Shown in pieces: positions 150 through 18,994 of a DNA stretch of 35,178 bases. The stretch is taken from positions 1 to 35,178 of the forward strand of contig NZ_CADCWD010000095.1 of the NCBI RefSeq assembly GCF_902806315.1, given 5' to 3'. Numbering within the stretch: the stretch's first letter is position 1; every line of letters starts with the position of its first letter. A model generated the notes under the pieces. That model did no database searches. It saw only the letters and a list, made by a program, of their open reading frames with translations, and was not told the DNA's origin. The position numbers and the translations under genes were made by a program. Source of the DNA: an uncultured Sphingosinicella sp. (GTDB taxonomy: Bacteria; Pseudomonadota; Alphaproteobacteria; Sphingomonadales; Sphingomonadaceae).

Positions 150-285
150 TCGACGGATCCTGTGCGCTGGCTGCGCCGGGCCGTTGACAAACACGGGGTA
201 CCCTTCACGAACGCGCGCGGACGTCCGCGGGAGACTGAGGCGCAGTTCCGGCTGCTCCTGAACGCAATGCAATGCTCACGCTCAG
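150..285 (+). pseudogene. Excisionase/DUF4224-like small protein, remnant
   Basis: One plus-strand frame reads DPVRWLRRAVDKHGVPF followed by a GRPRETEAQFRLLL segment. This resembles the short DNA-binding proteins (DUF4224-like or excisionase-like) that sit directly before, and overlap, phage or island tyrosine integrases. No start codon or ribosome binding site for it can be seen, because the 5' side runs into the IS630 fragment, so I read it as truncated. It overlaps the start of the integrase remnant in another frame, which is the usual layout of such pairs. The family assignment is from pattern memory and only moderately sure. Confidence 0.5.
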
Positions 286-688: not shown

Positions 689-2269
689 TCAGCGCGCCGA
701 TACCTCAGCGACGGGCGTGAATAGAAGGTCGTGGTAATCCCAGCTGAAGTCGGCGATCGGTGAAATCGCTTTCATCGTGATGCGATCGACATTGCCATCG
801 GCGTCGAGACTGAAGGTGACGAAAGCGGGCTCGATCGACTTGTCGGCGAACACGGTTCGGAACGTGTCATATTGATGATGTTCGAGCCGCGCGGTCATGC
901 CCGGCGAGTGCGGAAACGTGACGGCCAGCCCCCCGCGCTCCTGCCGCACGTCGATCGTGCCGTACCAGGGATCGTTGAATTGGCCGGCATAGCGTGCCAG
1001 CGCGAGCGACGGACCGATCTTGGCCGGCCGGGCGGCGGGTGCCTGCAGCATCTTGACGGCCGCCTCGGCACGGGACGCCTTGAAGGCTTTGAGCTTCTCA
1101 GGCCAGCGATGCTGGGGAAGATCGAGATAATGGTCGAGCAACTCGTACATCAGGCCGCGGACGAGCTCGCCTTCCTCGCTGTTGACGGCGATGTACAATC
1201 CGACGTTCCGGTCGGGCAGGAGTGCCACGGCGGCAAGCGAGCCGAGCACCGCGCCGCCATGCCAGACCAGCTTGGCGCCGCGATAATCCTGCACCGTCCA
1301 GCCGAGCGCGTAGGTCGAGAACATCGGCTGCGAAGGCTTGAGGTCGGCCGGAGCCGGCGCGATCGGCTGCAGCACCACGGGCTTCCACATCTCGGTCGCG
1401 ACGGCTTCGCTGAACAGCCGACCGGAGCCGCCCGGGATTTGCCCTTTCGCAAGCTGGATTGCCAGCCATCTGGACATGTCGTTGGCGCTGATCGCGAGGC
1501 CGCCCGCCGGGGCGGCGTTGGCGCCGAGATCGGACTGGACTTCGTCGAGCGGCACCTGGGTGCCGAGGCCGCGAATGGCGCCGTTCAGGCGCGCATGCGG
1601 GCGGCCGCGATTGACGGTCGCGAGCCGGCCGGGGCTGTCGGCGGTGGAACGAAGCATTCCGGCGGGCCGGAAGACGCGCTCCTTCATGAACTGTTCCCAG
1701 CTCTGTCCGCTGACCTCCTCGACCAGCTGGCCGGCGACCATGTAGAGGACGTTGTCATAGGCGTACCCGCTGCGGAAGCTGGTCGCCGGCTTGATGTGGC
1801 GGAGCCGCCGTACCGACTCCTTGCGCGGCAGATCACTGCGCGGGAGGAACAGCAGATCCCCGGCGCCGAGCCCGAGGCCCGAGCGGTGGACGAGCAGGTC
1901 GCGGATCGTCATTTCGCGCGTGACCCAGGCATCGTACATGCGGAAATCCGGCATGTGGTCGATCACCTTGTCGTCCCACTTGATCTTGCCCTCATCGACC
2001 AGAATAGCGAGGGCCGCGGCCGTGAACGCCTTACCGGTCGAGCCGGTGGAGAAGATCGTGTCCGCATCCACGTGTTGGGCGTCCGAGAGCCCCCGTACAC
2101 CGTAACCTCGGGCAAGGGTGGTCTGCCCGTTCTCCACGATGGCGACCGTCACGCCAGGGACGCCGAGCGAGGTCCTGAGCTGCTCCACACGTGCGTCGAA
2201 GCCGGCGGGCGGCGCCGCTTGCAGCGGCATGGCGACGAGGGCGAGCATCAGAACGGGCAAGCGGCGCAT
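689..2269 (-). CDS. Secreted serine hydrolase, beta-lactamase/CubicO family
   Basis: A 526-residue penicillin-binding-fold hydrolase. An N-terminal signal peptide (about residues 1-18, ending QAA) predicts export to the periplasm. The nucleophile motif SxxK is S77-T-G-K80, the YxN motif is Y171-D-N173, and the KTG-equivalent is H337-G-G339, so the active site is complete. Family members are D-aminopeptidases, DD-peptidases, esterases or beta-lactamases; the substrate cannot be told from sequence. The start was set at the ATG at 2269 because the signal peptide begins there and AGGAG lies 8 bases upstream (2278-2282); the frame stays open further upstream but into permease-coding DNA. It is the last gene of the minus-strand TonB receptor-dgcN-permease operon, and its Shine-Dalgarno sequence abuts the permease stop. 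A role in clipping D-amino-acid peptides is inferred from context. Confidence 0.85.
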   Translation of the reverse strand: MRRLPVLMLALVAMPLQAAPPAGFDARVEQLRTSLGVPGVTVAIVENGQTTLARGYGVRGLSDAQHVDADTIFSTGSTGKAFTAAALAILVDEGKIKWDDKVIDHMPDFRMYDAWVTREMTIRDLLVHRSGLGLGAGDLLFLPRSDLPRKESVRRLRHIKPATSFRSGYAYDNVLYMVAGQLVEEVSGQSWEQFMKERVFRPAGMLRSTADSPGRLATVNRGRPHARLNGAIRGLGTQVPLDEVQSDLGANAAPAGGLAISANDMSRWLAIQLAKGQIPGGSGRLFSEAVATEMWKPVVLQPIAPAPADLKPSQPMFSTYALGWTVQDYRGAKLVWHGGAVLGSLAAVALLPDRNVGLYIAVNSEEGELVRGLMYELLDHYLDLPQHRWPEKLKAFKASRAEAAVKMLQAPAARPAKIGPSLALARYAGQFNDPWYGTIDVRQERGGLAVTFPHSPGMTARLEHHQYDTFRTVFADKSIEPAFVTFSLDADGNVDRITMKAISPIADFSWDYHDLLFTPVAEVSAR

Positions 2270-2280
2270 GGAGGGCACTC

Positions 2281-3417
2281 CTATGATATTGCGGCGGGAT
2301 CGGCACCGGTCGGGGCAGCGGGGCCGCGCAGGATCCGCCGCATGCCGATCGTTGCGAGCGGCAGGATGAAAATGGCGAGGATTAGATAGGCCAGCGCACG
2401 ATACCCGTTGGCGATCAGCGCGACCAGGCCGAAGCGACCTGCGAGCAGCATGCAGCCGACCAGCAGCAAGAGCGCGATCACGAGCCGCGCCTTGTGCGTC
2501 AGCGCGACCCCGCGGCGGCGCTCCCAAGCGCGGTCGATCCGCTCGTTGATCGCGTGAACCGCGCTGGCGCCGCTTTCGAGGAGGGCCGAAAAGATCATCA
2601 GCTGGAACAGGAGCTGGAATAGCGGCAGGTTCAGCCGTGCGAGCAGAACATCGGACGGCAGGGTCGCCGTCTCGATGCCAGGGTAGAAGGCGACCATCGC
2701 GATGAAGAACAGCAGCGCCGGCACCATCGCCAAGGGGCCGCAGATGGCACCGGCAACGATCGCATCGCGGCTGCTGGTGAGATGCCGGACGACCGGCAGG
2801 ATCACCACGGCGCCGATCAGGTTGTAGCTCGCATAGGTCACGCCGCCGACCAGCCAGCCTTCGGAAGGTGCCGGTTGCGCGAAACCGGCCGCGATCCGGT
2901 CACCGAAGCTGGAGAAAGCCAGCACCACGAACAAAGCATAGACCGCGTAGAGGAGGTAGGAGACATATTCGAACAGATGCTCGACGGCCTTGTTGCCGAA
3001 GGTCACGAACATGAGGATGCCGGCCATCAGGGCGAGCGTGCCGGCTATCGCGGGTGCGCCGAACACGGCCTGGGCGATCGCGCCGGCGGCAGCGCCGTAC
3101 ACGGCCAGGATCAGGACGACGAACAGGATGTAGACGGCCTCGAAAGCGATCCAGCCGGGGCCGAGCAGGTCCTTGAAGAAGGTGCGGTAATCGCGCGCGC
3201 CGGTCGCGCGGGCGAACAGGAATGTGGCGATGCAGACCAGGCTGAAGGTGGTGGTCGCGACCAGGATAGCTGCGAGGCCGCCACACGGGCCGCTTGGCAG
3301 GAAGAATTCGGCGAGCTCGCGCCCCGTGGCATAGCCGCCGCCAATCACCACCGCCTTGAAGGCCAGCCCCGGCAGCAGGAAGCGCTGGAACCAGGTCGGA
3401 CGAACGGCTTCGGTCAT
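2281..3417 (-). CDS. YkvI-like membrane permease (LeuT/APC-fold type)
   Basis: A 378-residue polytopic inner-membrane protein with about ten hydrophobic segments. It opens with a FLLPGLAFKAVVIGGGYATG motif in the first membrane region, where the glycine-rich break typical of APC-superfamily (LeuT-fold) amino-acid transporters lies. It resembles the little-studied YkvI-like group of bacterial membrane proteins, for which I know no firm substrate. The ATG at 3417 overlaps the dgcN stop in an ATGA arrangement, so the two are translationally coupled. Tight linkage to a D-glutamate acetyltransferase candidate suggests it carries an amino acid or acylated amino acid, possibly D-Glu; this is inference only. 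It ends in TAG at 2281-2283, directly before the serine hydrolase ribosome binding site. Confidence 0.75.
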   Translation of the reverse strand: MTEAVRPTWFQRFLLPGLAFKAVVIGGGYATGRELAEFFLPSGPCGGLAAILVATTTFSLVCIATFLFARATGARDYRTFFKDLLGPGWIAFEAVYILFVVLILAVYGAAAGAIAQAVFGAPAIAGTLALMAGILMFVTFGNKAVEHLFEYVSYLLYAVYALFVVLAFSSFGDRIAAGFAQPAPSEGWLVGGVTYASYNLIGAVVILPVVRHLTSSRDAIVAGAICGPLAMVPALLFFIAMVAFYPGIETATLPSDVLLARLNLPLFQLLFQLMIFSALLESGASAVHAINERIDRAWERRRGVALTHKARLVIALLLLVGCMLLAGRFGLVALIANGYRALAYLILAIFILPLATIGMRRILRGPAAPTGADPAAIS

Positions 3418-4478
3418 TCGCGCGCCAGGATGGCGTCGATCATGCGGGTGAGGGGGGCTCCACCGCGCAGCGGATCGGCAACGGGCAAGCCGAGCCGGTC
3501 GGTCTCGAAGGCGATCATTCGCTCGGCCTCTTCGGACGAGAGCGCCGATGTGTTGAGGCTCACGCCGGCGCAGCGGATGTGCGGGTTCGTGCGGGCGCCG
3601 AGCTGAATATTTAGCGCAATCGTCTGTTCTATATCTGGAACTGCGTAGGCTGGGTGGCCGAGAGTGGCGGTGCGGCCAGGTTCGTGGCAGACGATGATCA
3701 GGTCGGGCTGGCTGCCGTGCAGCAGCGCTAGCGCGACGCCGGCATAGGCGGGATGGAAAAGCGAACCCTGGCCTTCGATCACGTCCCAATGATCGGGGGG
3801 CGCATCGGGGCTGAGCAGCTCGGCCGCGCCGGCGGCAAAGTCGGCAATCACCGCGTCCATCGGGATGCCCCCGCCCGCAATCATGATGCCGGTCTGGCCG
3901 GTCGCCCGGAAAGTCGCGTTAATCCCGCGGGCGTTCAATTCGCGCGCGACGGTCAAAGCCGTATATTTCTTGCCGAGCGCGCAATCCGTTCCCACGGTGA
4001 GCAGGCGTCTGCCGCTCCGTTTGCGACCGTTCGCGACTGGCAGGTCAAGCGGCGGATCACGCACCTCAATCAGCCGGATGTTGTGCTCGGCGGCGAGCAC
4101 GGCCAGGCCGGGGAGGTCATAGAGGCGATTGTGCATTCCGCTGACGATATGAAGCCCGGCGCGCACCGCCGCTTCGAGCGCCGGCCGCCAGGTCTTGGGA
4201 ATTGCGCCGCCCGAATTGGCGACACCGATCACCATCGATTGCGCGCCTTGCCGCTTGGCTTCGATTGGGGTGAGCTTCGGGAGTCCGGTGCCGACCGTCG
4301 CGCCTGGCAATGCAAACTCGCCGACGCAGCGCTCCGGCGCCCAGTCGCGCAGGCCGAAAGCGGTCTTTGCGTAGCCGGGCTCGGTCGTGTCGCCGAGGAA
4401 CAACAGGTAAGGTTGCGGCAGATCGAGCCCCGTCGCGACGTCGCGGCCGGGCTCGATTGCCAGCCCGGCTGCGCTCAA
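3414..4478 (-). CDS. dgcN: DUF1611 protein, D-glutamate N-acetyltransferase DgcN-like
   Basis: About 354 residues. The N-terminal domain contains PYLLFLGD (24-30), and the second domain has the P-loop-like GTDCALGKKYT (163-173) followed by EGQGSLFHPAY (235-245), all hallmarks of DUF1611. Members of this family were reported as DgcN, which N-acetylates D-glutamate with acetyl-CoA so that DgcA can racemise N-acetyl-D-Glu to N-acetyl-L-Glu. Here a dgcA-like gene lies about 5 kb away on the other arm of the same island. The start is uncertain: no ATG precedes the conserved block, and TTG at 4478 overlaps the TonB receptor stop (TTGA), which suggests coupling. The 3' end overlaps the permease ATG (ATGA). 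Older annotations call such proteins NAD-dependent epimerases. The family is sure; the exact reaction is inferred. Confidence 0.8.
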   Translation of the reverse strand: MSAAGLAIEPGRDVATGLDLPQPYLLFLGDTTEPGYAKTAFGLRDWAPERCVGEFALPGATVGTGLPKLTPIEAKRQGAQSMVIGVANSGGAIPKTWRPALEAAVRAGLHIVSGMHNRLYDLPGLAVLAAEHNIRLIEVRDPPLDLPVANGRKRSGRRLLTVGTDCALGKKYTALTVARELNARGINATFRATGQTGIMIAGGGIPMDAVIADFAAGAAELLSPDAPPDHWDVIEGQGSLFHPAYAGVALALLHGSQPDLIIVCHEPGRTATLGHPAYAVPDIEQTIALNIQLGARTNPHIRCAGVSLNTSALSSEEAERMIAFETDRLGLPVADPLRGGAPLTRMIDAILARE

Positions 4479-6838
4479 AAGCCTGCCCCGACGATCAGGC
4501 CGATGGTGCGAGGACGGATCGTCGACACGTTGATCAACGGCGCGGCATTGCCCCCCAAGGCGGCCGGCACCGAGAAGGGGAAGCCGCCGGCACTGACCAC
4601 GCCGTAAGTGTCGAACAGGTTGCGAGCGAAGACCTGGGCCGTGAACCGGCCGAAGTTCACGCCGGCACGGAGGTCCACCGTGTCGTAGCCGTCGATACGG
4701 ATGCGGTCCCCGTATGCGGCGCGATAGGCAGCGCTGAAGCCGGCGGTCTGCTCGCCCACGAGCCTCAGGTTGCCGCCGACAAAGGCATCAACATCCGGTG
4801 CGAGCGACCATTCATAATCCGCCGAGACGTTGAAGCTGACCTTCGGCGTGTAGGGGAGTTGATCACCGGCGAGGCCGCCCGTGAGATTGAGGCCGCCGCC
4901 GGGCGGCACCGTGTCGTCGCGAAGCTCGGCGTCGACATAGGCGAAATTGGTGACAATGCTGAAACCGCGCGTCGGCCGCATCGTGGCGGTCAGCTCCGCC
5001 CCCTTGACCCGCGCGCGGCCGCCGTTGGAATTCACGCCGACCGGACCTGCGGCGCTGTTGGCAGTGCTGAGGATCAGGATGTCGTCCCAGTCGATATAAT
5101 AGATGGAGCCGTCGACCGAGAAGCTGCGGTCTGCCGTCTGGGCCCGCAAGCCGATCTCGTAGGAGACGAGGGTGTCCGAATTGAACTCTCTCGGGAAGTC
5201 TGGGCCGGCGCCAGGCGGGATGAAGGTAGGTCCGCCCGGGCGATATCCCTTGGCGACGCGCGCGTAGAGCGACGTGCGATCGTTGATCTCGAAGCGCGGC
5301 GACACGGAGTAGGTGAACACGCCCTCCGAAGACTCGCCGGATTGCGGCGAGCCTGTGCCGAGCTGGGTCACCTGCTGCGTCGAGCTCTGCTCGTTACGGC
5401 TGTAACGGCCGCCCGCGGTGATATCGAAGCGTTCGCCAAACTTGAGCGTGGCGCTCGCGAAACCCGCAATCTCCTCATATTCTCCCGAGATGTTCGCGAA
5501 GACGAACCGGTCGAACGTGAATGGGCCGAACGTGCCAAGCGTCGGTATGAAAGCCTGAGTTGACAACGTGAAGGGAAAGAATTCCTGGGTCAGCGCCGTC
5601 TTCTCGTTGGTGTAATAGCCGCCGATCAGCCACTCAAAACGATCGTTATCGGGCGATTGCAGCCGCACCTCCTGAGTAAACTTCTCCACCTCGACGTCGT
5701 TCTCGAACGCTAACCCGACGGTGTTCGGCGCAGTCGGAGCGTAGATGACATTCGCCAGGCCGCGAGTTCCGGTCGTGCTGATGTCGCCGAGCTCGTCGCG
5801 AGTCTGCTCGCTGTAGCTGGTGATCGAGGTTAGGCTGGCAAAGCCGAAGTCATAATCGACGGTGCCCGAGAAGACCCGGTAATCGATGTTGTTAAATTCA
5901 GGGATGCGCTCGTAGCGCGTGCGGTCCGCCTTTGAAACGAAGGCGCCGGTAAGCGGGTCCACCGGCTCCAGTGTTCGTGGGTCGGCTTGGAACGTTGACG
6001 GCGAGTCGGTCTCGATATTCTGGAGCAGCGCGAACAGCCGCACCGAGAGCGCATCGGTCGGCGTGAACAGCAAGGAGGCGCGGCCGCCATAGCTTGTGCT
6101 GCCGTTGACGTTGCGGCCGCCGCGTGCCGGTGCGTCCAGATAGCCGCCAGTGTCGCGATAGAAGCCGCTGGCGCGAAAAGCGAGCGTCTGCCCAAGCGGA
6201 ACGTTGACGACGGCATTGCCGAGATAGCCTATTTCGCCATAGCGCGTATCCTCGATGCCGGCTTGCGCGCGCACCTCGAAGCGGTCGGTGCTCGGCGCGG
6301 CGGTGATGAACTTGAGCACACCTCCCAGGGAATTCGAGCCGTAGAGAGTGCCCTGCGGGCCGCGTAGCACCTCGATACGGGCCACGTCGAACGTGTCGAA
6401 ATCGCCGGCCAGGATAGCCCCGTTGGCAAGGCTGCCGCTCTGGCCGAACGGAATGTCGTCGACGTAGGTGGCGACGGTGGACCCGACGGAGCCGGTGTTG
6501 ATGCCGCGCAGAATAAGGCGCGTCTCGCCGGGATTGTCCTGCGTCACGGTGAAGCCGGGAACGAGCTGGGCATAGTCGATGAAGTTGCGGGCGACCTGGC
6601 GTTCCAGAGTTTCCTCGCCGATCACCGAAATTGATTGCGGCACATCGATCAGTGTCTGCTCGCGGCGCTGGGCGGTGACGATGATTTCGGAAGGCGCCGC
6701 ATCCTGCTGGCCGGCCTCGCTGGTCGGCGAGCCCGGATCCTGCGCGCTCTGTGCCGCAGCCGGCGCTGCCGTTAGCGCGACCAGTGCGACAGATGCCATC
6801 GCGGCGGCGCGCAGAGTAAGTGTTGTGCAGCGGATCAT
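4475..6838 (-). CDS. TonB-dependent outer-membrane receptor
   Basis: A 787-residue outer-membrane transporter. A signal peptide ends near residue 30 (PAAAQ), a TonB-box-like EIIVTAQRR lies at 51-59, then comes the plug domain (VPQSISVIG; RGPQGTLYGSNSLGGVLKF) and a long beta-barrel ending in the terminal phenylalanine needed for BAM recognition. A strong AAGGAGG (6844-6850) precedes the ATG by 5 bases. It is the first gene of the minus-strand operon and is preceded by promoter/operator copy 1 at 6911-6950. The receptor imports a ligand too large or too scarce for porins. With peptidases, a peptide transporter and D-amino-acid enzymes in the same island, a D-amino-acid-containing oligopeptide or peptidoglycan fragment is the likely ligand, but the sequence does not show this. 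Confidence 0.93.
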   Translation of the reverse strand: MIRCTTLTLRAAAMASVALVALTAAPAAAQSAQDPGSPTSEAGQQDAAPSEIIVTAQRREQTLIDVPQSISVIGEETLERQVARNFIDYAQLVPGFTVTQDNPGETRLILRGINTGSVGSTVATYVDDIPFGQSGSLANGAILAGDFDTFDVARIEVLRGPQGTLYGSNSLGGVLKFITAAPSTDRFEVRAQAGIEDTRYGEIGYLGNAVVNVPLGQTLAFRASGFYRDTGGYLDAPARGGRNVNGSTSYGGRASLLFTPTDALSVRLFALLQNIETDSPSTFQADPRTLEPVDPLTGAFVSKADRTRYERIPEFNNIDYRVFSGTVDYDFGFASLTSITSYSEQTRDELGDISTTGTRGLANVIYAPTAPNTVGLAFENDVEVEKFTQEVRLQSPDNDRFEWLIGGYYTNEKTALTQEFFPFTLSTQAFIPTLGTFGPFTFDRFVFANISGEYEEIAGFASATLKFGERFDITAGGRYSRNEQSSTQQVTQLGTGSPQSGESSEGVFTYSVSPRFEINDRTSLYARVAKGYRPGGPTFIPPGAGPDFPREFNSDTLVSYEIGLRAQTADRSFSVDGSIYYIDWDDILILSTANSAAGPVGVNSNGGRARVKGAELTATMRPTRGFSIVTNFAYVDAELRDDTVPPGGGLNLTGGLAGDQLPYTPKVSFNVSADYEWSLAPDVDAFVGGNLRLVGEQTAGFSAAYRAAYGDRIRIDGYDTVDLRAGVNFGRFTAQVFARNLFDTYGVVSAGGFPFSVPAALGGNAAPLINVSTIRPRTIGLIVGAGF

Positions 6839-6910
6839 GTGCCCCTCCTTGTGCCGGCGCGCCGCTGTTGCGGTTACGCCATTCCTGCCAAGTTTCGTAA
6901 ACGGGCAGTT

Positions 6911-6950
6911 CTGATCGGGACAGTATTAGCCTGAATAGAGAATTGTCAAA
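6911..6950 (-). promoter_or_regulatory. Promoter/operator copy 1, before the TonB receptor operon
   Basis: On the minus strand a consensus -35 TTGACA (plus positions 6944-6949) is followed 17 bases later by a poor -10 (ATACTG; TAATAC is nearby at shorter spacing). The 40 bases from TTTGACAATTCTCT to GATCAG match copy 2 (7707-7746) at 31 of 40 positions with no gap. This is far more than two sigma-70 promoters would share, so it probably also contains a regulator site. The neighbouring XRE protein is the obvious candidate to bind it. Confidence 0.65.
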
Positions 6951-6967
6951 CGATCTCGGCGCGTCTG

Positions 6968-7690
6968 TCAGGCATCTGCACTGCGAGCGCGACGGCGATC
7001 GAGGGTGCGCCGTTTGACTGGGCGCATGTCCGCTTCGCCCTCGTTAGCCGGGGCGGGAGGATTCGACTGATCGGTGCCGTGGAGGCCGAGCAGTGAACTC
7101 ATCAGGTCTTCCTCCGCACTCGAGCAGACACCGATGGTGGTCGCTTCATCGCAGCCGGGCGCGGCAAGATAGGCGTGGCCCATGTTCGAATCGATGTAGA
7201 TCGACTCGCCTTCGCCGAGCAGGACGGGATCGTAGAATTCGGTATGAACTTCGACTTGGCCCTTCAGCACATATATGTATTCCTCGCCCGAGTGGCGGAC
7301 GAGATCGCCAAATTCCGCCAGTGACTTGGCGCGGATCGTCGTGATGATCGGGATCATCCGCTTTCGACGCAGTTCCGTGCACAGATAGTGATAGTCGTAA
7401 TTGGGCGTGGTCACCCGCACCGCCCGTTCGAGCTGGCCGATGCTGCGACGCGCGGTCACTTTCGTCTCGTCCGGCTCGCTCGACTCGGCGAACAGCTCGG
7501 ACATGCGGATCCGCAGCCGCTGGCTTAGCTGCAGCAGCTTGTCATAGGTGAGCGTGAGCCGATCATGCTCGACCTTGGACAAGGTCGACATCGGGATTCC
7601 GCTGCGCGCGCTCATTTCCTTGAGCGTCCAGCCGTTTCGCGCCCGTAAGTTGCGCAGCAATTGCCCTAGTGTCGGTTGGTCGGGCTTCAT
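6968..7690 (-). CDS. XRE-family transcriptional regulator with cupin sensor domain
   Basis: A 240-residue regulator. Residues 9-64 form an XRE helix-turn-helix (TLGQLLRNLRARNGWTLKEM, then GIPMSTLSKVE), and residues ~115-190 form a cupin barrel (HSGEEYIYVLKGQVEVHTEF, H172 in DSNMGHAYL). This SutR/PuuR-like architecture commonly senses a small catabolic ligand in the cupin. The start was placed at the ATG at 7690, directly before the HTH; the frame continues upstream only through promoter sequence. A perfect TATAAT on the minus strand (7731-7736), lying inside operator copy 2, can drive it with a leader of about 35 bases and suggests autoregulation. It sits between the two arms of the island and probably controls both. 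The C-terminal ~40 residues are charged and probably disordered. Confidence 0.88.
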   Translation of the reverse strand: MKPDQPTLGQLLRNLRARNGWTLKEMSARSGIPMSTLSKVEHDRLTLTYDKLLQLSQRLRIRMSELFAESSEPDETKVTARRSIGQLERAVRVTTPNYDYHYLCTELRRKRMIPIITTIRAKSLAEFGDLVRHSGEEYIYVLKGQVEVHTEFYDPVLLGEGESIYIDSNMGHAYLAAPGCDEATTIGVCSSAEEDLMSSLLGLHGTDQSNPPAPANEGEADMRPVKRRTLDRRRARSADA

Positions 7691-7706
7691 TCGTCCGGCT
7701 TTCCCA

Positions 7707-7746
7707 TTTGACAATTCTCTGTCCAGGATCATTATAGCCTGATCAG
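7707..7746 (+). promoter_or_regulatory. Promoter/operator copy 2, before the right-arm operon
   Basis: TTGACA (7708-7713), a 17-base spacer and ATTATA (7731-7736) face the plus-strand operon. On the opposite strand the same ATTATA reads TATAAT and can serve the XRE gene. The 40-bp block matches copy 1 at 31/40 positions. It contains CAGG-N10-CCTG (7724-7741) and the palindrome CTGATCAG (7739-7746), either of which could be an operator core. The leader to the ATG at 7826 would be roughly 80 bases. Confidence 0.65.
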
Positions 7747-7825
7747 ATACAGACCCGATGCATCGTGCGAAGCATAAGCTCGATTTAACACGAAAAGCAA
7801 TCGGGCGAGCTAGGGAGGATCCGCG

Positions 7826-10851: not shown

Positions 10852-12155
10852 CCGACGCACGCGCGCCGGAGGCGACATGGTTCGGCCAACCGCGCGGCCT
10901 CACTGTCCTGTTCCTCACCAATATGTGGGAGCAATTCTCCTACTTCGGCATGCGCGCGCTGCTGGTCTACTACATGACGACCACCTTGCTGTTCGATCAG
11001 GAAGCGGCGTCCTCCACCTACGGCTTCTACACCGCCTTTGCCTATTTCACGCCGATCATCGGCGGGACCATCGCCGACCGCTGGCTCGGCAAGCGGCGCG
11101 CGGTGACGATCGGCGCGACCGTCATGGCGGCGGGCCATTTCATGATGGCGTTCGAACCGCTCTTCTACCCCGCGCTCGCCACCATCGCGCTTGGCAACGG
11201 CCTGTTCCTGCCGACGCTGCCGAGCCAGATCAACGACCTCTACGCCGCCGGCGACCCGCGCCGGCCGTGGGCGTACAACGTCTATTATGTCGGCGTGAAT
11301 GTCGGCGCGTTCCTGGCGCCGCTCATCTGCGGGTTCCTGGGCGAAACCTATGGCTGGCACTGGGGCTTCGGCGCGGCCGGTGTCGGAATGCTGCTGGGTC
11401 TGGTCATCTATCTCGCCGGCGGTCGCTATCTGCCGCAGGAGCGGGCGCCGGTCACCGGCGAGCCGGCGGCAGAGCGGACCCATCGCGGCCGCGACACCCT
11501 GTTCCTCCTGCTCGGCATCGGCCTTGCCGTCACTGTCTTTCGCGGCGCCTACGAGCAGATTGGCAACACGGTCGCTTTGTGGATGCGTGACGACGTGAAC
11601 CGGTTCATCGGCAGCTTCGAGCTGCGTGCGACTTGGTTCTTCTCGCTGAACCCGCTGCTGGTGATGACCGTCACCCCGCTGCTCCTCGCCCGGTGGCGGC
11701 GTCAGGCCGAGCAGGGACGGGAACTCTCTGTCATGCAGAAGATGGCGATGGGTGCGGTGCTGGTCGGCCTGTCCTACGCGCTGCTCGTTGCGGCCGAGAG
11801 CGTGGCGGGGGCGGGCCAGGCGAGCTGGCTCTGGCTGCTGGCCTTCATGATCGTGTTCACATTGGGCGAGCTCTACATCCTTCCCAACGGCCTCGGCATC
11901 TTCGCCCGGCTCGCGCCGCCGAAGCTCGGTGCCAGCACGGTGGCCGCCTGGTATTTCGCGATCTTCACCGGCAGTCTCGCCGCCGGCCAGATCGGTCGGC
12001 TGTGGAGCCGGATGGACCAGGCGTCCTTCTTCATGCTGATGGCCGCGATCGCCGGGGCGGCGGCGGTCCTGCTCTTGCTTCTGGATCGACCCGCGCGCCG
12101 GATTGTGGCTGCGGGTGAGCCGGGTAAGACATTGCCTTTGGGAGAAACAAGATGA
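10848..12155 (+). CDS. POT/PTR2-family peptide transporter
   Basis: A 435-residue inner-membrane transporter of the proton-coupled oligopeptide family (MFS fold, about 12 helices). The diagnostic helix-1 motif reads NMWEQFSYFGMRALLVYYM (25-43), followed by GGTIADRWLG. The family takes di- and tripeptides from the periplasm into the cytoplasm. Oddly, the ExxER proton-coupling motif is altered to N25-x-x-E28-Q29, removing the first glutamate and the arginine. Either coupling differs or the substrate is not an ordinary peptide. The ATG at 10848 overlaps the dgcA stop (ATGA), and the 3' end overlaps the next gene in the same way. Position after dgcA and before two peptidase-like genes supports import of peptides released in the periplasm. 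Confidence 0.88.
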   Translation: MTDARAPEATWFGQPRGLTVLFLTNMWEQFSYFGMRALLVYYMTTTLLFDQEAASSTYGFYTAFAYFTPIIGGTIADRWLGKRRAVTIGATVMAAGHFMMAFEPLFYPALATIALGNGLFLPTLPSQINDLYAAGDPRRPWAYNVYYVGVNVGAFLAPLICGFLGETYGWHWGFGAAGVGMLLGLVIYLAGGRYLPQERAPVTGEPAAERTHRGRDTLFLLLGIGLAVTVFRGAYEQIGNTVALWMRDDVNRFIGSFELRATWFFSLNPLLVMTVTPLLLARWRRQAEQGRELSVMQKMAMGAVLVGLSYALLVAAESVAGAGQASWLWLLAFMIVFTLGELYILPNGLGIFARLAPPKLGASTVAAWYFAIFTGSLAAGQIGRLWSRMDQASFFMLMAAIAGAAAVLLLLLDRPARRIVAAGEPGKTLPLGETR

Positions 12156-13843
12156 TCCGCTCCGTCCGTGTTGCACTACTCGCGACATGCCTCATGCTGC
12201 CGGGCTGCGCGACCACGCCGCCCGCGGCGAGCTATGACGTGATCGTCCGCAACGGCACGATCTACGACGGCGGCGGCGGAGCACCGTTCACCGGGGATGT
12301 CGCAATCCGGGGCGACAAGATCGTCCGGGTCGCGCCGCGTGTGCCTGGCACCGCGGCCACCGAGATCGACGCCCGCGGACTCGCCGTCGCGCCCGGCTTC
12401 ATCAACATGCTGAGCTGGTCGACCGAGTCGCTGATACAGGACGGGCGCGGGCAGAGCGACATCCGCCAAGGCGTGACGCTCGAAGTGATGGGGGAGGGCT
12501 GGTCGATGGGCCCGCTCAACCCGGAGATGAAGCGCCTGCTCGTCGAGCGTCAGGACGACATCAAGTTCCCGGTCACCTGGACCAGCCTCGGCGACTATCT
12601 CGGGCATCTCGAGCGGAAAGGCGTCTCGCCCAATGTCGCGAGCTTCGTTGGGGCCGCGACGGTGCGCATCCATGAGCTTGGCGAGCGCGACATCGATCCC
12701 ACTCCCGCTCAGCTTGGCCGCATGCGCATGCTCGTCCGCCAGGCGATGAACGAGGGCGCGATGGGTGTCGGCAGTTCGCTCATCTACGCGCCGGGCAGTT
12801 TCGCGGAAACGGAAGAGCTGGTCGCGCTCACCACCGAATCCGCGCGCTGCGGCGGCATGTATATCAGCCACATGCGCTCGGAAGGCGATCGGCTGCTGGA
12901 AGCGGTCGACGAGCTGATCGAGATCGCGCGCCGCTCCGGCGGCCCCGCCGAGATCTACCACCTCAAGATGGCCGGCCGCGGCAATTGGGACAAATATCCG
13001 CAAGTGATCGCCCGCATCGAGGCGGCGCGGGCGCAAGGGCTGCGGATCACCACCGACATGTACACCTATACCGCTGGCGCCACCGGCCTCGATGCGGCGA
13101 TGCCGCTGTGGGTGCAGGATGGCGGGCTGGAGAAGTGGATCGAGCGGCTCAAGGACCCTGCAGTACGCGCGCGGGTGGCGGCCGAGATGAAGCAGCCGGG
13201 CAAGGACTGGGAGAACCTTTACCTCGGCGCAGGCCCCGACAAGATGATCCTGGCCGGCTTCAAGAACGAAGCCATGAAGCAATATACGGGCAAGACGCTG
13301 GCGCAGATGGCGCAGCTCTGGGGCAAGAGCCCGGAGGAAACCGCGATGGAGCTGGTCGTGCGCGACGGCAGCCGCGTCGGCACAGTCTACTTCCTGATGT
13401 CGGAGGACAATGTCCGCCGCCAGGTGCAGCTTCCCTGGATGAGCTTCGGTTCCGACGCCGAGAGCCGAGCGCCCGAGGGCGTGTTCCTGAAATCGAGCAC
13501 GCACCCGCGCGCCTACGGCAATTTCTCACGCCTGCTCGGCCGCTATGTTCGCGACGAGAAGCTGCTCCCGCTCCAGGAGGCGGTGCGGCGTCTGACATCC
13601 TTCCCGGCCGGCAATCTCGGCATCAAGGATCGAGGCTCGCTCAAGGCGGGCTACCATGCCGACCTCGCCATCTTCGATCCCGCTACGATCAGCGATCACG
13701 CGACCTTCGAAACGCCCCAGCGCTACGCCACGGGCATGCGGCACGTTCTGGTCAACGCCGTCCCGGTGCTCCGCGACGGCGAGCATACCGGCGCAACGCC
13801 TGGCCGGTTTGTCCGTGGGCCTGGCTGGAATCGCTGTCGATGA
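12152..13843 (+). CDS. D-aminoacylase-like amidohydrolase lipoprotein
   Basis: A 563-residue protein with a lipobox (LPGC, C19), so probably a lipoprotein facing the periplasm. The rest follows N-acyl-D-amino-acid deacylases: the urease-like N-terminal strand set (YDVIVRNGTIYDGGG), H240 (MYISHMRSEGD), H270 (IYHLK), D302, D435 (SFGSDAES) and the C-terminal GYHADLAIFDP. The metal-binding HxH that normally follows GFID is replaced by L87-S-W89 (GFINMLSW), and the usual metal-ligand cysteine position appears to be G116 (GEGW). The classical enzyme frees D-amino acids from N-acyl-D-amino acids; this branch may use a single metal site or another substrate. It is coupled to the POT gene by ATGA. The family is likely; activity and substrate are uncertain. 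Confidence 0.8.
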   Translation: MIRSVRVALLATCLMLPGCATTPPAASYDVIVRNGTIYDGGGGAPFTGDVAIRGDKIVRVAPRVPGTAATEIDARGLAVAPGFINMLSWSTESLIQDGRGQSDIRQGVTLEVMGEGWSMGPLNPEMKRLLVERQDDIKFPVTWTSLGDYLGHLERKGVSPNVASFVGAATVRIHELGERDIDPTPAQLGRMRMLVRQAMNEGAMGVGSSLIYAPGSFAETEELVALTTESARCGGMYISHMRSEGDRLLEAVDELIEIARRSGGPAEIYHLKMAGRGNWDKYPQVIARIEAARAQGLRITTDMYTYTAGATGLDAAMPLWVQDGGLEKWIERLKDPAVRARVAAEMKQPGKDWENLYLGAGPDKMILAGFKNEAMKQYTGKTLAQMAQLWGKSPEETAMELVVRDGSRVGTVYFLMSEDNVRRQVQLPWMSFGSDAESRAPEGVFLKSSTHPRAYGNFSRLLGRYVRDEKLLPLQEAVRRLTSFPAGNLGIKDRGSLKAGYHADLAIFDPATISDHATFETPQRYATGMRHVLVNAVPVLRDGEHTGATPGRFVRGPGWNRCR

Positions 13844-13868
13844 CCCGAGCTGGAAAAGGAGGCTGTTG

Positions 13869-14999
13869 ATGCCCGGGATGTCGCGGCGGAGCCTGATCGG
13901 TGGCGCCGCCGTTGCGGCAGTCGGCTTTCCGATGATCAATGCCGGCGCCTATCAATTGGGCACGGTTCGGACTTACTCGCGGCGTGCCGTGGACCTCGTG
14001 CGGCGTTCGATCGTGGTCGACATGCTGGCGCCGCTCAAGATCGAATTCGATCAGGCTTTCTACAGGGCTCCGCTGAGCGAAAAGGATGCCGCCGAGTTTC
14101 GTGCCAGTGGGATCACCGGCTTCCACCACGCCTTTGGGATCGGCGGACCGACTGCCCGCGAGCAGGCGCTGACGCAGCTCGCTACCGTGGGCAATTTCGT
14201 GGCGCGCAACAGCCATGTCTTCACCGCAGTTGGTCGCGCCGCCGACCTCGTCCGCGCCAAGCGGGACGGCAAGGCTGCGGTCATCATGGGTCTGCAGAAT
14301 GCCGATCAGTTTCAGAAGCCGGAAGACGTCGAGTTCTTCTACGGGCTGGGGCTCCGCTGCGCACAGCTCACCTACAACAGCCAGAACCGGATCGGCTCGG
14401 GTTCGACCGAGCGGGTCGACGGCGGCGTCAGCGACTTCGGCGTGTCGATCATCGAGGCGATGAACAAGGCGGGCATGCTGATCGACGTCTCCCATTCGGG
14501 CGATCGTACGACGCTGGACGCGATCGCCTCCTCGCCCAAGCCGATCGCGATTACGCACAGCAATTGCCGCGCGCTGGTCGGCCACCCTCGCGCCAAGCCC
14601 GACGAGGCCATTCGCGCGGTCGCCGCGAAGGGCGGGGTGATGGGGATTACTGGCGTGCGCAATTTCGTCAGCCGCAGCGATCCCACCACGGTCGCGCACA
14701 TCGTCGATCACATCGATCATGTCGCCAAGCTGGTCGGGATCGAACATGTCGGCATCGGCACGGATTCCGATCTCAACGGCTATGACGATGTCTCGCCCGA
14801 GATGAACAAGCGGCTGCGCGGCGCCTACAAGGACAGCTACGCCTTTCGCGAGAAGATCGACGTCGACGGGTTCGATCACCCAAGGAAGATGTACGATCTG
14901 ACGGAAGAGCTGATCCGGCGGCGCTATTCCGATGAGAATATCTCGGCCGTTCTGGGCGGCAACTTTAAGCGGCTGCTGACCTCGACATGGGGAGCTTGA
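13869..14999 (+). CDS. Peptidase M19 (membrane dipeptidase)-like protein
   Basis: A 376-residue renal-dipeptidase-family protein. The N-terminus MPGMSRRSLIGG is Tat-like (twin arginine, then a hydrophobic stretch), predicting export of a folded metalloprotein. Retained ligands are H209 (LIDVSHSGD), H230 (ITHSNC) and D299 (GIGTDSD). The H-x-D pair near the N-terminus of M19 enzymes is replaced by L53 and P55 (VVDMLAPL), and the bridging glutamate appears to be Q143 (MGLQNADQF), so one metal site looks absent. Typical members cleave dipeptides, including those with C-terminal D-residues. AGGAGG (13857-13862) lies 6 bases before the chosen ATG at 13869; a second ATG at 13878 is less well placed. 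It follows the amidohydrolase by 25 bases and precedes the next hydrolase by 4. Confidence 0.8.
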   Translation: MPGMSRRSLIGGAAVAAVGFPMINAGAYQLGTVRTYSRRAVDLVRRSIVVDMLAPLKIEFDQAFYRAPLSEKDAAEFRASGITGFHHAFGIGGPTAREQALTQLATVGNFVARNSHVFTAVGRAADLVRAKRDGKAAVIMGLQNADQFQKPEDVEFFYGLGLRCAQLTYNSQNRIGSGSTERVDGGVSDFGVSIIEAMNKAGMLIDVSHSGDRTTLDAIASSPKPIAITHSNCRALVGHPRAKPDEAIRAVAAKGGVMGITGVRNFVSRSDPTTVAHIVDHIDHVAKLVGIEHVGIGTDSDLNGYDDVSPEMNKRLRGAYKDSYAFREKIDVDGFDHPRKMYDLTEELIRRRYSDENISAVLGGNFKRLLTSTWGA

Positions 15000-15003
15000 G
15001 CCG

Positions 15004-16521
15004 GTGCGCCTGACCCGCCGCGCGCTCGCGTCCACCGCCGCCTTCCTTGTCGCCACGTCGGGGCTTTCCGTTTCAGTTCCCGCTGCCGCCCAGCCAGCCG
15101 CCTCCGGTTGGATCGACCAGGCGCAGCTTGCCGGGCTGCCGCATTTCATCGACGGCGTTCTTGCTCAGCAACTCGACAATCGCGAGGTGGCCGGCGCGGT
15201 GGTGTCCGTCGTGTCCGGCGACAGGATCCTGTTCTCGCGCGGCTACGGCTTTGCCGACGTCGATCGCGGCATCCCGGCCGACCCGGCGCGCAGCATTTTC
15301 CGTCCGGGATCGAGCTCGAAGCTATTCACCTGGACCGCGCTCATGCAGCTGGTTGAGCAGGGCCGGGTCGACCTCAATGCCGAGGTCAACCGCTACCTGG
15401 ATTTCAGGATTCCAGACACCCAGTCCAAGCCGATCCTGGTCAGGCATCTGCTCGATCACAGCCTCGGGTTCGAGGATCGCGGCGGCATCCGCGCCGAGTC
15501 TGTGTCCGGCCTGATGCCGCTCGGCAAATGGCTGGCCGAGAACATCCCGACCCGGGTTCGCGAACCAGGGATCGAGACCTCCTATTCGAATTACGGCACC
15601 GCGCTGGCCGGCTACATCGTGCAGCGCGTGTCGGGCGAACCGTTCCCCGACTATGTCGAGCGCCACATCTTCAAGCCGCTCGGGATGAACAGCACTACGT
15701 TCCGCGAACCGCTGCCCACCGCGATGGCGGCCAAGATGGCAGTCGGCTACGATTATGTGGAGGGACGCTTCGAAGCCCGGCCGTTCGAACTTTACGGCAA
15801 CATCATGCCGGCCGGATCCGGCTCCTCGACCGCAGAGGACATGGCGCGGTTCATGATCGCGCACCGTCACGAGGCCCGCGTCGGCAGCACACGAATCCTG
15901 AAGCCCGAGACCGCGCGCCTCATGCACTCCAACCTCAGCGCGAACGCGCCTTCGCTGCCCGGCTTCGCGCATGGCTTCTATGTCATTCGCGAAAACGGGC
16001 CGCGGCTGATCGGGCATGGCGGCAACACCGCTTACTTCCACTCAATGCTGCTGCTCGCGCCGGAGCAGGATTTCGGGATCTTCGTCTCGTACACCGGCGG
16101 CGACGCCGCGAGCCAAGCCAGGACCGAGCTGATCGACGCGGTGATCGGACGCCTTTTCCCGGTTGCACCGGCGGCAAAATGGACTGGCGCTCCCAGCGCC
16201 CCGCCGGTCGGATCCTATCGGACCAACCGCCGCACCTACAGCATTGCCGCCAACCCCGATAACGACGTCAAGGTAATCGCGGCGCCGGACGGTGGCCTCA
16301 TCGTCGAGAATGCCGGGAAGAAGACCCACTGGATGCGGATCGGACCCGGGCTCTACCAGCGAGTGACCGGGACACGGGCAGGGCGGCCGTTTGATCGCAT
16401 CCTCTTTCACGGCGCCGGTGCGGACAGGCTGATGTCCTTCGCATCGCAGCCGATGGTTCTTTACCGGCTGGTTGAGGACGGCGGCGCAGCCGCGTCCGAG
16501 TCTCGCCGACCCGACGGGTGA
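15004..16521 (+). CDS. Secreted serine hydrolase, paralogue of the 7826 hydrolase
   Basis: A 505-residue beta-lactamase/D-aminopeptidase-fold enzyme with a GTG start at 15004, four bases after the M19 stop; GGGGAG within the previous gene's end serves as ribosome binding site. The N-terminus (VRLTRRALASTAAFLVATSG) has twin arginines and a hydrophobic core and is cleaved near PAAAQ (~30). The active site is complete: S103-S-S-K106, Y194-S-N196, H338-G-G340. Residues ~60-340 are strikingly similar to the membrane-anchored hydrolase of the same operon, but the four-helix tail is missing and replaced by a soluble C-terminal domain (~385-495), so it is probably free in the periplasm. The substrate is unknown; context suggests peptides with D-residues. 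Confidence 0.87.
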   Translation: MRLTRRALASTAAFLVATSGLSVSVPAAAQPAASGWIDQAQLAGLPHFIDGVLAQQLDNREVAGAVVSVVSGDRILFSRGYGFADVDRGIPADPARSIFRPGSSSKLFTWTALMQLVEQGRVDLNAEVNRYLDFRIPDTQSKPILVRHLLDHSLGFEDRGGIRAESVSGLMPLGKWLAENIPTRVREPGIETSYSNYGTALAGYIVQRVSGEPFPDYVERHIFKPLGMNSTTFREPLPTAMAAKMAVGYDYVEGRFEARPFELYGNIMPAGSGSSTAEDMARFMIAHRHEARVGSTRILKPETARLMHSNLSANAPSLPGFAHGFYVIRENGPRLIGHGGNTAYFHSMLLLAPEQDFGIFVSYTGGDAASQARTELIDAVIGRLFPVAPAAKWTGAPSAPPVGSYRTNRRTYSIAANPDNDVKVIAAPDGGLIVENAGKKTHWMRIGPGLYQRVTGTRAGRPFDRILFHGAGADRLMSFASQPMVLYRLVEDGGAAASESRRPDG

Positions 16522-16568
16522 CGAAAGCAGAAGCTCCAGCCCATCCCGCCTGAACGACGAGGTCCGCC

Positions 16569-18524
16569 ATGAAATCTCTGCTCACTCTCGCCCTGCTTAG
16601 CCTCCCGGCTCCGCTGCTCGCCCAAGCCGCGGTCGCGGTCGACAGGCCGGGCAAGACCTCGGCCGGCGTCAGCTACACGCAGCCCAAGGACTGGGCGGTG
16701 ACGAGCAAGGCGCAGGCGACGGTCTTCGCTGCGCCAGAGGGCAATCTCAACATGGCTGTGGTCGATGTCGGGGAGGCGGCGGACGCGCCCGCGGCCGCCG
16801 CAAAGGCCTGGTCGATCTACAAGCCCACTGCCGGCCGCAAGGTACGGCTGGTCACGGCCGGAGCGCCGGGCGAGGGCTGGGAGGAGCGCGCGGGCATGGC
16901 TTATGAGACCTCGCCCAACGAACGCGCGGCGGTGTCGGCGCTGGCGCTGAGGAAGGGGCGGGCCTGGACCGTGCTGATCGTCGACGGCGCTGAAGCAACG
17001 CTTGGCAAGCGGTCGGCCGCGGCCTCCGTGATCCAGCAGAGCCTCCGTCCGGCCGGCTACCAGCGGGAGAGCTTCGCGGGCAAAACCGCGCACCGGCTCA
17101 CGCCCGAGCGGGTTCAGGCCCTGCGTGATTTCGTTGCCGCGTCCGCTAAGACGCTCGGCGTGCCGGGCGTCGGGCTCGCCCTCCTCGATGGGGGCAAGGT
17201 CGTCTGGCAGGGCGGCGTCGGCGTGCGCGAGCTCGGCGGCACGGAACCAGTCACCGCCGACACCAAGTTCATGATCGCGTCAAACACCAAGGGCATGGCG
17301 ACCCTGCTGCTGTCGGTGCTCGCCGACGAGGGCAAGCTGCGTTGGGACCAGCCGGTGACTGAGCTCTACCCGTCGTTCAAGCTCGGCAATCAGGCGACCA
17401 CACAATCGACCTTGGTTCGCCATCTCGTTTGCGCCTGCACAGGCCTGCCGCGCAAGGACTACGCCTTTATCCTCGGCGATCGCGGCCTGCCGGCATCCGA
17501 CACCTTCCGGCAGCTCGGCCAGACGCAGCCGACGAGCGGGTTCGGCGAACTCTTCCAATATAACAATTTGATGGCGTCTGCGGCCGGCTATCTAGGCGGC
17601 GCGCTCCTTTACCCTCGCATGGAAGTCGGCGCCGCCTTTGACCGCGCAATGGACGAGAAGATCTTCAAGCCGCTCGGGATGCGCAACACCACGTTCGACT
17701 TCGATGAAGGCATGCGCGGCAATTGGGCGCGGCCGCACGGTCTCGACGTGAACGGCAAGCTGACCGAGATCCCGGTCGACTTCAACTACACCGTCTACCC
17801 CTACCGCCCCGCCGGTGGTGCTTGGTCGACCACCGCCGACATGGTGAAATATGTTCAACTGGAGCTTTCCAAAGGGGTAATTCCCGGGGGCAAGCGACTG
17901 GTGAGCGAGGCCAACATTCTCAAGCGCCGCGAGCGCGGCGTGCCAGTCGGCGAAGACAATTGGTACGGCATGGGCCTGTTCGACCGGGTTGCCTGGGGCG
18001 TGCCGGTCGTCTCGCATGGCGGGACGCTGCTCGGCTATCACAGCACCTTTTATGCGCTGCCGGATTCCGGCATCGGCGCCGTCATCCTGACCAACTCGGA
18101 CCCTGGCGCCTCCATGCTGGCCCCGTTCCTGCGCCGGCTGCTCGAGGTCGCCTATGACGGCAAGCCGGAGGCCGTGCAGGATGTTGCCACCGCGGCCGCG
18201 CGGATCCAGGCGCAGGCGAAGGCGAAACGCGATCGACTGACGGTGCCGGGCGACCCGGCCGTTCTCGCTGCCCTGGCGCCCAGATACCGCAACCCCGAGG
18301 TCGGCACCGTTACCTTCCGGGATCAGGGCGGCACGAAGTGGATGAAGGCCGGCTTTGTTGAAGGCCCGGTCGCGACGCGCGAGAACCTCGACGGCAGCAT
18401 TTCAGTGGTGTCCGCGGGAGCTGGCGGGATCGGGGTTGAAGCGCTGGTGGGCAGTCAGGCCGGAACACGAACGCTCACCATCCGCGACAGCCAGCACGAG
18501 TATGTCTACACGGAAGTGCGCTGA
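16569..18524 (+). CDS. Secreted two-domain serine hydrolase (beta-lactamase family)
   Basis: A 651-residue exported protein (signal peptide ~1-20, ending LLAQA). Residues ~25-165 form a separate domain resembling the small alpha/beta domains appended to some sphingomonad hydrolases; I cannot name it. A beta-lactamase/CubicO domain follows: S238-N-T-K241, Y331-N-N333, H483-G-G485, so it should be active. A C-terminal extension (~550-651) is probably a beta-barrel-like tail. It differs in sequence from the other three serine hydrolases of the island and so is not a recent duplicate. It lies 47 bases after the preceding hydrolase and is the last gene of the plus-strand run; no clear terminator was found after it. 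Confidence 0.85.
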   Translation: MKSLLTLALLSLPAPLLAQAAVAVDRPGKTSAGVSYTQPKDWAVTSKAQATVFAAPEGNLNMAVVDVGEAADAPAAAAKAWSIYKPTAGRKVRLVTAGAPGEGWEERAGMAYETSPNERAAVSALALRKGRAWTVLIVDGAEATLGKRSAAASVIQQSLRPAGYQRESFAGKTAHRLTPERVQALRDFVAASAKTLGVPGVGLALLDGGKVVWQGGVGVRELGGTEPVTADTKFMIASNTKGMATLLLSVLADEGKLRWDQPVTELYPSFKLGNQATTQSTLVRHLVCACTGLPRKDYAFILGDRGLPASDTFRQLGQTQPTSGFGELFQYNNLMASAAGYLGGALLYPRMEVGAAFDRAMDEKIFKPLGMRNTTFDFDEGMRGNWARPHGLDVNGKLTEIPVDFNYTVYPYRPAGGAWSTTADMVKYVQLELSKGVIPGGKRLVSEANILKRRERGVPVGEDNWYGMGLFDRVAWGVPVVSHGGTLLGYHSTFYALPDSGIGAVILTNSDPGASMLAPFLRRLLEVAYDGKPEAVQDVATAAARIQAQAKAKRDRLTVPGDPAVLAALAPRYRNPEVGTVTFRDQGGTKWMKAGFVEGPVATRENLDGSISVVSAGAGGIGVEALVGSQAGTRTLTIRDSQHEYVYTEVR

Positions 18525-18994
18525 TCCGCTAAATAAGGGTTGGTTTCGCGGAGCATCGGAGGGTTGCTTTCGACGCGAACGAGATCGTGATCCGGCCCAC
18601 CGCGCAAGTTTCCAATCGAGTGCTTTGTAGGCGTCGGCGCCGGGGTTCACGCGAGACCCACGCCACCGATCTCTCTCAAATACGGAGACACAGCGATGCC
18701 CCGCGGTCGCGCGAGGTTCCGAGGGATCGCAGACCGCTCGGCGAACTCGCCTTCGAGAGCGGTTACTGGACTTGGTGTTGAAGCCACGACTGTGAAAGCG
18801 TTGCAGGCGCTGGCCTGCGCCCGAGAAATTGGTAGAAATACCGGCTTTTCGCGCCTAGGTTATGCATGACATTCGGAGGGTCGCAAGTTCTCCTTGCCAC
18901 GCCCACCATTTTCCATCCTCGCCCGAGAATGAGCCAGCCTCGGCTGACGTGGAGGAGAGCGGCTATAACTGACAAGCGGCAGGGATCGAGCAGC
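18525..18994. other. 470-base region without a convincing gene
   Basis: No frame here gives a recognisable protein. A 57-codon plus-strand ORF from about 18696 lacks a ribosome binding site and any family resemblance. Two small hairpins are visible: GCAGGC-GCTG-GCCTGC around 18803-18818 and GGTA-GAAA-TACC at about 18830-18841, neither followed by a T-tract. The AT-richer stretch at 18855-18870 contains TTATGCATGACATTC, where an ATG (18866) opens a frame into argH, but it lacks a Shine-Dalgarno sequence. The argH promoter presumably lies here but I cannot place it. Confidence 0.5.
18951..18967 (+). promoter_or_regulatory. Strong Shine-Dalgarno facing an ATA codon upstream of argH
   Basis: GGAGGAG (18951-18957) lies 7 bases before an in-frame ATA (18965-18967), the spacing expected for a start codon. 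Reading on gives T-D-K-R-Q-G-S-S-S and then MWGGRF, so this looks like an ancestral ATG start changed to ATA, a very rare non-canonical start, or a start lost in favour of the ATG at 18995. Confidence 0.4.

Follow-up and report, generated by a model that had tools for sequence, protein, structure and literature searches.

The window analyzed here is the 35,178-nucleotide contig NZ_CADCWD010000095.1 of an uncultured Sphingosinicella sp. (the whole of contig C95; the genome comprises 2.69 Mb in 97 contigs and is 95.8% complete). Between positions 689 and 18524 it carries an island in which relatives of DgcN and DgcA stand among a TonB-dependent receptor, transporters, serine hydrolases, and an XRE-cupin transcriptional regulator. 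Judging from its gene families and their conservation, we consider that the island is probably, although with considerable reserve, a copy of a widespread regulon for the catabolism of peptides with D-residues. The gene set recurs together in related loci, one type of site stands before each of the two arms of the island, and the DgcA relative has lost the basic residue at position 24 of its pocket.

Co-occurrence of the gene set in related loci

The proteins of the window were assigned to families by Pfam and NCBIfam profile scores, and a homologue was counted as present in a locus when it reached at least 200 bits against the window protein. Our main sample comprised 54 neighbourhoods of 20 kb around DgcN matches ending at profile position 318-320 (the window's type, clade 2), which are the loci of this type among the matches listed; full-length counts use 52 of them, L053 (short) and L042 (which ends with its contig) being excluded. 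The controls were 40 random 20-kb regions from the same or sister genomes (800 kb in all), and six canonical-type DgcN loci (L086-L091) and 20 other DgcN copies were likewise fetched. In addition, we analyzed a set of named genomes, i.e., the best 80 of at least 558 relatives among 597 stretches, scanned with the window-type DgcA (57 full-length). The 54- and 80-locus sets are not independent, as they overlap in part (e.g., L084/L195, L065/L216, and L076/L221).

Our analysis showed that all seven core families occur together in 27 of the 52 full-length loci, whereas in the 40 random regions not one of the seven reached the threshold; these regions yielded one POT match and a few weaker TonB and other matches. 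All seven core genes are likewise found in 23/57 full-length named loci, and DgcN and DgcA of the window's type co-occur in 39 of the 52. The initial annotation had proposed to look whether the TonB receptor, the XRE regulator, and the serine hydrolases travel with dgcN and dgcA; conserved co-occurrence is what we found, so its stated ground for rejection failed. The same contrast with the random regions, together with the shared site described below, supports its view of a system inherited together, in which every step from the outer membrane to the cytosol has its type of gene. In the six canonical loci, the only families of the window reaching the threshold were DgcN, DgcA, and, in 5/6, the amidohydrolase.

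A DgcN match is present in 88 of 298 genomes of the family, four of which have at least seven copies. The named relatives are mostly sphingomonads; the other carriers are Caulobacter, Lysobacter, Luteimonas, Stenotrophomonas, Steroidobacter, Massilia, Duganella, and metagenome-assembled genomes (MAGs) of an Acetobacteraceae member and of Verrucomicrobia, and the relatives thus span the Alpha-, Beta-, and Gammaproteobacteria and Verrucomicrobia MAGs. The same gene set, in some cases with losses, was seen in Sphingomonadaceae, Caulobacter, Lysobacter/Luteimonas, Steroidobacter, Massilia/Duganella, and a Chthoniobacterales MAG. The cluster is common to many unrelated soil and water bacteria.

In its usual order, the XRE gene is divergent from S12b-DgcA-[POT/M19]-TonB receptor-DgcN-permease-S12a, which lie on one strand. 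Accordingly, dgcN and dgcA share a strand in 39/39 and 62/65 related loci with both genes (101/104 together), the exceptions being L152 (DgcA 86% identical), L174, and L203; L138, outside the counted sets, also splits the two genes. The receptor and DgcN are both on the XRE strand, as in the window, only in L152 and L174. The placement of dgcN and dgcA on opposite arms, which had been put forward as characteristic of the island, is therefore real in the window but unusual, and the same-strand arrangement in 101 loci rules it out as a defining feature.

Some variant loci carry further proteins, namely a D-serine-dehydratase/alanine-racemase-fold protein, S9 peptidases, class A beta-lactamase-like hydrolases, or histone-deacetylase (HDAC)-like proteins. 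The D-serine-dehydratase/alanine-racemase-fold protein is found at L046 (Pfam-typed) and, by cluster membership, at L052, L057, L069, L188, and L208. L046, L052, L057, and L069 have a window-type DgcN and the amidohydrolase with no DgcA nearby. DgcN and DgcA are both found at L188, and L208 has DgcA with no DgcN within the stretch. The histone-deacetylase-like amidohydrolase (PF00850) lies near L076 (Pfam-typed) and, by cluster membership, near L070, L072, L075, L200, and L221. Such proteins fit modular D-peptide catabolism, without naming a substrate.

A conserved site before each arm

The conserved element that emerged from 74 non-redundant intergenic regions between XRE and S12b reads TTTGACAaTTtTCtaATcAGGATCATTATGtCC, and at least 9 of its 11 key positions are kept in 43 of the 74. 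The site is about 36 bp long, with one copy before each arm of the island. A site model built from 40 sites, with the window and L152 left out of training, gave two positive-scoring sites in the window and no more: one at 7705-7740 (+, 49.9 bits), before the S12b-dgcA arm, and one at 6917-6952 (-, 43.3 bits), between XRE and the TonB receptor. L152 carries the same pair, and the maximum over the 40 random regions was 3.0 bits. In 134 related loci, the gene nearest to a site of at least 18 bits was S12b 71 times (partly training data), the TonB receptor 37 times, M19 17 times, DgcN 10 times, DgcA six times, and the amidohydrolase once, and 15 sites had no matched gene.

A pattern search allowing at most two mismatches detected 32 sites in 17 of 20 genomes, of which 25 fall in the window or in fetched clade-2 loci, and the reversed control pattern had no match in these 20 genomes. 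The window's genome contains only the two window sites by this search, both with 0 mismatches. Because the same conserved element stands before each arm, the two arms share one site type, which is most simply read as a putative operator/promoter of the XRE-cupin protein (6968-7690, -; Pfam; homologues in 40/52 full loci).

Pattern sites outside the fetched loci lie at G204:C46:49321, G204:C35:34943, G230:C1:118677, G230:C2:325639, G240:C12:195586, and G240:C13:140164 and 236926. These may mark additional members of the regulon family.

The DgcN and DgcA relatives and their substrate

The DgcN-like protein (3414-4439, -; start uncertain, 4439 or 4478) belongs to clade 2 and has the N- and C-terminal domains of DUF1611 (PF17396 and PF07755) with a readable P-loop, GTDCALGKK. 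The DgcA-like protein (9841-10851, +) was placed by profile, alignment, and model among the racemases/epimerases of the enolase superfamily, and it is found in 39/52 full loci. Both score below the cut-offs of their equivalog families: 441.2 bits against 480 for DgcN (NF041892) and 362.6 bits against 400 for DgcA (NF042940). Other window-type DgcA proteins reach 345-381 bits (5/5 below the cut-off), whereas canonical ones reach 418-439 (5/5 above). The window's genome encodes a second pair that exceeds both cut-offs (DgcN 506.6 bits, DgcA 428.2 bits), located at G000:C55:47228-48205 (L019, L086) with an amidohydrolase as the sole window family in its 20-kb surroundings. This second pair is likely the organism's true D-Glu pathway.

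In the numbering of the E. coli epimerase, hereafter native, residues G22, F25, and Y51 of the window DgcA are 21, 24, and the loop Arg position. Window-type proteins have Gly at 21, Phe at 24, and Tyr or Phe at the loop position (42/42), whereas canonical DgcA proteins have Arg21, Lys or Arg at 24, and Arg in a PxRYGE loop (27/27), as do E. coli 1jpd and 4gfi. Five duplicate loci were removed from this alignment, L015, L018, and L030 had no alignable DgcA in a 4-kb stretch, and L148, L149, and L151, of the same DgcN clade and outside the 54, were used only here, in the DgcN and DgcA residue comparison. L002, not counted among the 27, shows the canonical R, K, and R and would make the count 28/28. 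Position 24 was picked from the alignment as the DgcA test feature; in the named loci, Phe24 is present in 81/82 DgcA copies.

In Ala-Glu epimerases, Arg24 is the residue that binds the side chain of glutamate. This residue is retained in 1jpd (named L-Ala-D/L-Glu epimerase), 4gfi, and 3iji, and 3q45, solved with D-Ala-L-Val, has Leu instead. According to one report, dipeptide epimerases are predicted to vary in specificity, and the Thermotoga enzyme takes hydrophobic C-terminal residues (PMC13338154). In the DgcN relatives, the canonical Arg at window positions 26, 32, and 211 is replaced in most clade-2 members; 7xrj, the closest solved relative of DgcN, has Arg at 32 only. Mainly because of position 24, and also because of the family scores, a hydrophobic or aromatic D-residue appears a likelier substrate than D-Glu. 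The earlier assignment of the pair to a channel from D-Glu to L-Glu is therefore doubtful and probably wrong.

The enolase-superfamily catalytic residues of the DgcA relative, K148, K150, K248, D177, E203, D226, D298, and D300, are invariant in 34 aligned sequences. In dipeptide epimerases they make up the KxK motif, the second Lys, the Asp/Glu/Asp metal ligands, and the DxD motif.

Gene content of the island and its proposed working

Read from 7690 down to 689, the left arm encodes the XRE-cupin regulator, the TonB-dependent receptor (4475-6838, -; Pfam; 31/52 full loci), the DgcN-like protein, a second permease (2281-3417, -; 40/52), and S12a (689-2269, -; 2269 being the chosen start; 31/52), an exported S12 serine hydrolase with PF00144 and DUF3471 domains and the motifs STGK, YDN, and HGG. 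In the right arm (7826-18524), consecutive genes are separated by gaps of about 50 bp at most or overlap by 1-4 bp. This arm encodes S12b (7826-9841, +; SVSK, YSN, and HLG; 38/52), an S12 serine hydrolase with C-terminal hydrophobic segments, followed by the DgcA-like protein, a POT family oligopeptide:H+ symporter (10848-12155, +; 17/52; 275.4 bits against TIGR00924, above its cut-off of 130.2), and an amidohydrolase of the D-aminoacylase type with the lipobox LPGC (12152-13843, +; 24/52). A membrane-dipeptidase-like M19 protein with a twin-Arg-like leader (13869-14999, +; 22/52) and two exported S12 serine hydrolases, S12c (15004-16521, +; SSSK, YSN, and HGG; 10/52) and S12d (16569-18524, +; SNTK, YNN, and HGG; 7/52), complete it.

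The families named by the initial annotation (TonB receptor, POT, four S12 proteins, amidohydrolase lipoprotein, M19, DgcN and DgcA relatives, and XRE-cupin regulator) are thus present by Pfam and NCBIfam. Its catalytic motifs and gene overlaps were also borne out: SxxK, YxN, and HxG are readable by eye in all four S12 proteins, whose PF00144 domains score 180-214 bits (gathering cut-off 27), and S12b/DgcA, DgcA/POT, POT/amidohydrolase, and DgcN/permease (the last by 4 bp) overlap by 1-4 bp. The second permease was upheld in part. It has no Pfam match, but its predicted structure (pLDDT 90.6) weakly resembles LeuT-fold transporters (best E about 1e-5); many of the matches are amino-acid carriers (BasC, MhsT, and AdiC), but Nramp and CodB are matched too. 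We take this permease to be YkvI-like. A role of the S12 proteins in beta-lactam resistance was rejected, as the class C profile NF033085 gives them 40.8-92.8 bits against a cut-off of 415.

At the contig end beside the island, positions 2-400 (-) give a weak IS630 transposase match (31 bits against a cut-off of 100). On the other side of the island, downstream of a run of arg genes, the window encodes a histidine kinase (26004-27359, -) and a histidine kinase/LytTR response regulator pair (28701-30109, +).

Leader peptides, the lipobox, and the twin-Arg-like leader can be read by eye on the hydrolases, and no leader of this kind was seen by eye on the DgcN and DgcA relatives. Because the hydrolases carry these leaders and the lipobox, their cleavage of the substrate is likely periplasmic. 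We propose that the TonB receptor would take a peptide across the outer membrane and that the exported S12 hydrolases, the D-aminoacylase-like lipoprotein, and the M19 dipeptidase would cut it in the periplasm, after which the POT symporter may bring in di- and tripeptides and the LeuT-fold permease free residues. The cytosolic steps would be acylation of the released D-amino acid by the DgcN relative and its inversion to the L-residue by the DgcA relative; alternatively, the latter may directly epimerise the imported dipeptide. The XRE-cupin protein, probably sensing an intermediate, would control both arms by binding the 36-bp site. The gene families, their conservation, the shared sites, and the altered pocket residues are observed; the direction of this route, its specificity for D-residues, the binding of the regulator, and a hydrophobic instead of a glutamate side chain are what we infer.

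Alternatives, known systems, and significance

Several observations weigh against a D-peptide regulon of this kind with a non-glutamate substrate. No other core member reached the threshold in 7 of the 52 full clade-2 loci, 33 of the 134 related loci have no site of at least 18 bits, and 7 of the 32 pattern sites fall beyond the fetched loci, in three genomes with many DgcN copies. The DgcN clade is moderately supported (0.70) and the DgcA clade well supported (0.92), and at L138 a window-type DgcA stands beside a DgcN outside the clade. It should be noted that the S12 and amidohydrolase families include esterases and other amidases. As for the pocket, 3iji/3ijq, solved with L-Ala-D-Glu, keeps Arg24 with Thr at 21 and Tyr at the loop position. 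Because this Glu-binding enzyme lacks Arg21 and the loop Arg, only residue 24 sets the window type apart from all three Glu-type structures, and the loss of the other two arginines is less telling. The DxD motif is kept in 34/34 aligned members and in canonical DgcA as well, so that it is no guide to a dipeptide as against an N-acyl substrate.

The last two points bear on the two nearest alternatives. It is unlikely that an authentic DgcN and DgcA convert D-Glu from muropeptide-like oligopeptides to N-acetyl-L-Glu and L-Glu: the best NCBIfam matches of the pair are indeed DgcN and DgcA, the predicted DgcA structure is nearest in fold to 4gfi and the Ala-Glu epimerase 1jpd, and 3iji/3ijq shares the window's loop Tyr and lack of Arg21, but both proteins fall below the equivalog cut-offs in the split between clade-2 and canonical DgcA described above, Phe replaces Lys/Arg24 throughout, and a canonical pair is already encoded on C55 in other surroundings. 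Somewhat less unlikely, but still short of probable, is that the DgcA relative acts alone as a dipeptide epimerase (L-Xaa-D-Yaa to L-Xaa-L-Yaa) and the DgcN relative separately conditions or detoxifies D-residues, with no serial pathway. The invariant DxD, the nearest solved structures (dipeptide epimerases or homologues), and the dipeptides implied by POT and M19 would fit such a division, but DxD is equally present in canonical DgcA, and the strong co-occurrence of the two genes, on the same strand, resembles the published serial pathway.

Taking into account that argH, argC, argJ, argB, argF (288 aa only), and argG (18866-26007, +) begin about 340 bp after the island on the strand of its right arm, with the only ArgJ found in the genome, the island might supply them with N-acetyl-L-Glu. 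We regard this coupling as scarcely credible: no arg gene reached 200 bits in the 54 and 80 related loci, no regulator site precedes argH, and the idea requires the D-Glu specificity that is itself doubtful. A cyanotoxin or cyanopeptide pathway of the mlr (microcystin) kind is hardly more plausible and highly improbable in itself. MlrB is S12-like and MlrD POT-like. The same logic, with the periplasmic peptidase MlrB, the transporter MlrD, and the cytosolic MlrC, is described in Sphingomonadaceae (PMC12474180). Compared by gene type rather than by MlrB/MlrD sequence, such a system was rejected, as the MlrC domain PF07171 was not found in the window's genome at its given completeness (it matched 2 of 11 sphingomonad genomes searched and 0 of 14 named control genomes) and the relatives of the island reach Massilia and Verrucomicrobia MAGs.

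The D-residue peptide regulon that we favour has partial counterparts among known systems. The DgcN-DgcA D-glutamate pathway of Yu et al. in ISME J in 2023 reportedly runs in series, acylating and then inverting its substrate. The window pair is homologous and likely has the same chemistry, but it falls below both family cut-offs, has lost Lys/Arg24, and sits among a receptor, hydrolases, permeases, and an XRE-cupin regulator that the six canonical loci lack at the threshold, save the amidohydrolase in 5/6. Of two further sources, one names dgcN as the key gene of a pathway that irreversibly racemizes acidic D-amino acids and their amides (PMC12363236), and the other reports dgcN/dgcA expression (PMC10845958). 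The dipeptide epimerases (1jpd, 4gfi, 3iji/3ijq, 3q45, and 3deq) share the fold, the Lys and Asp/Glu residues, and DxD with the window DgcA, which, unlike the L-Ala-D/L-Glu epimerase, has Phe for R24 and scores below the PRK15129 cut-off (251.1 bits against 343). The mlr pathway is the best working analogue, with its periplasmic peptidase, inner-membrane importer, and cytosolic completion (PMC12474180); the window's genome, in which no MlrC was found, differs in having at this locus a TonB receptor, a racemase-type pair, and a regulator.

TonB/SusCD polysaccharide utilization loci are modular and multi-copy, each with its own receptor, enzymes, and regulator. The island resembles them in this build, with the many DgcN copies of some genomes, but has peptide rather than glycan enzymes and no SusD seen. 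We found no description of the assembly in the openly licensed literature, among the matches listed, in agreement with the initial annotation, and no account there of a dipeptide epimerase together with DUF1611.

The D-residues of peptides make up a pool of organic nitrogen that is broken down slowly, and the routes that take them from the outer membrane to the cytosol are poorly defined. The locus is a testable and widespread candidate for such a route, with its own regulator sites, and residue 24 is a single position that lends itself to a direct test of its part in specificity; the labels DgcN and DgcA may conceal another substrate. More tentatively, and short of what we would call probable, the island may represent a class of D-peptide utilization loci that has spread horizontally and occurs in multiple copies. 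In it, one XRE-cupin regulator would act through one operator at two promoters on a complete path from a TonB receptor to a retuned, cytosolic DgcN/DgcA-derived pair inverting hydrophobic or aromatic D-amino acids. This class would be a second, non-glutamate branch of irreversible D-to-L conversion.

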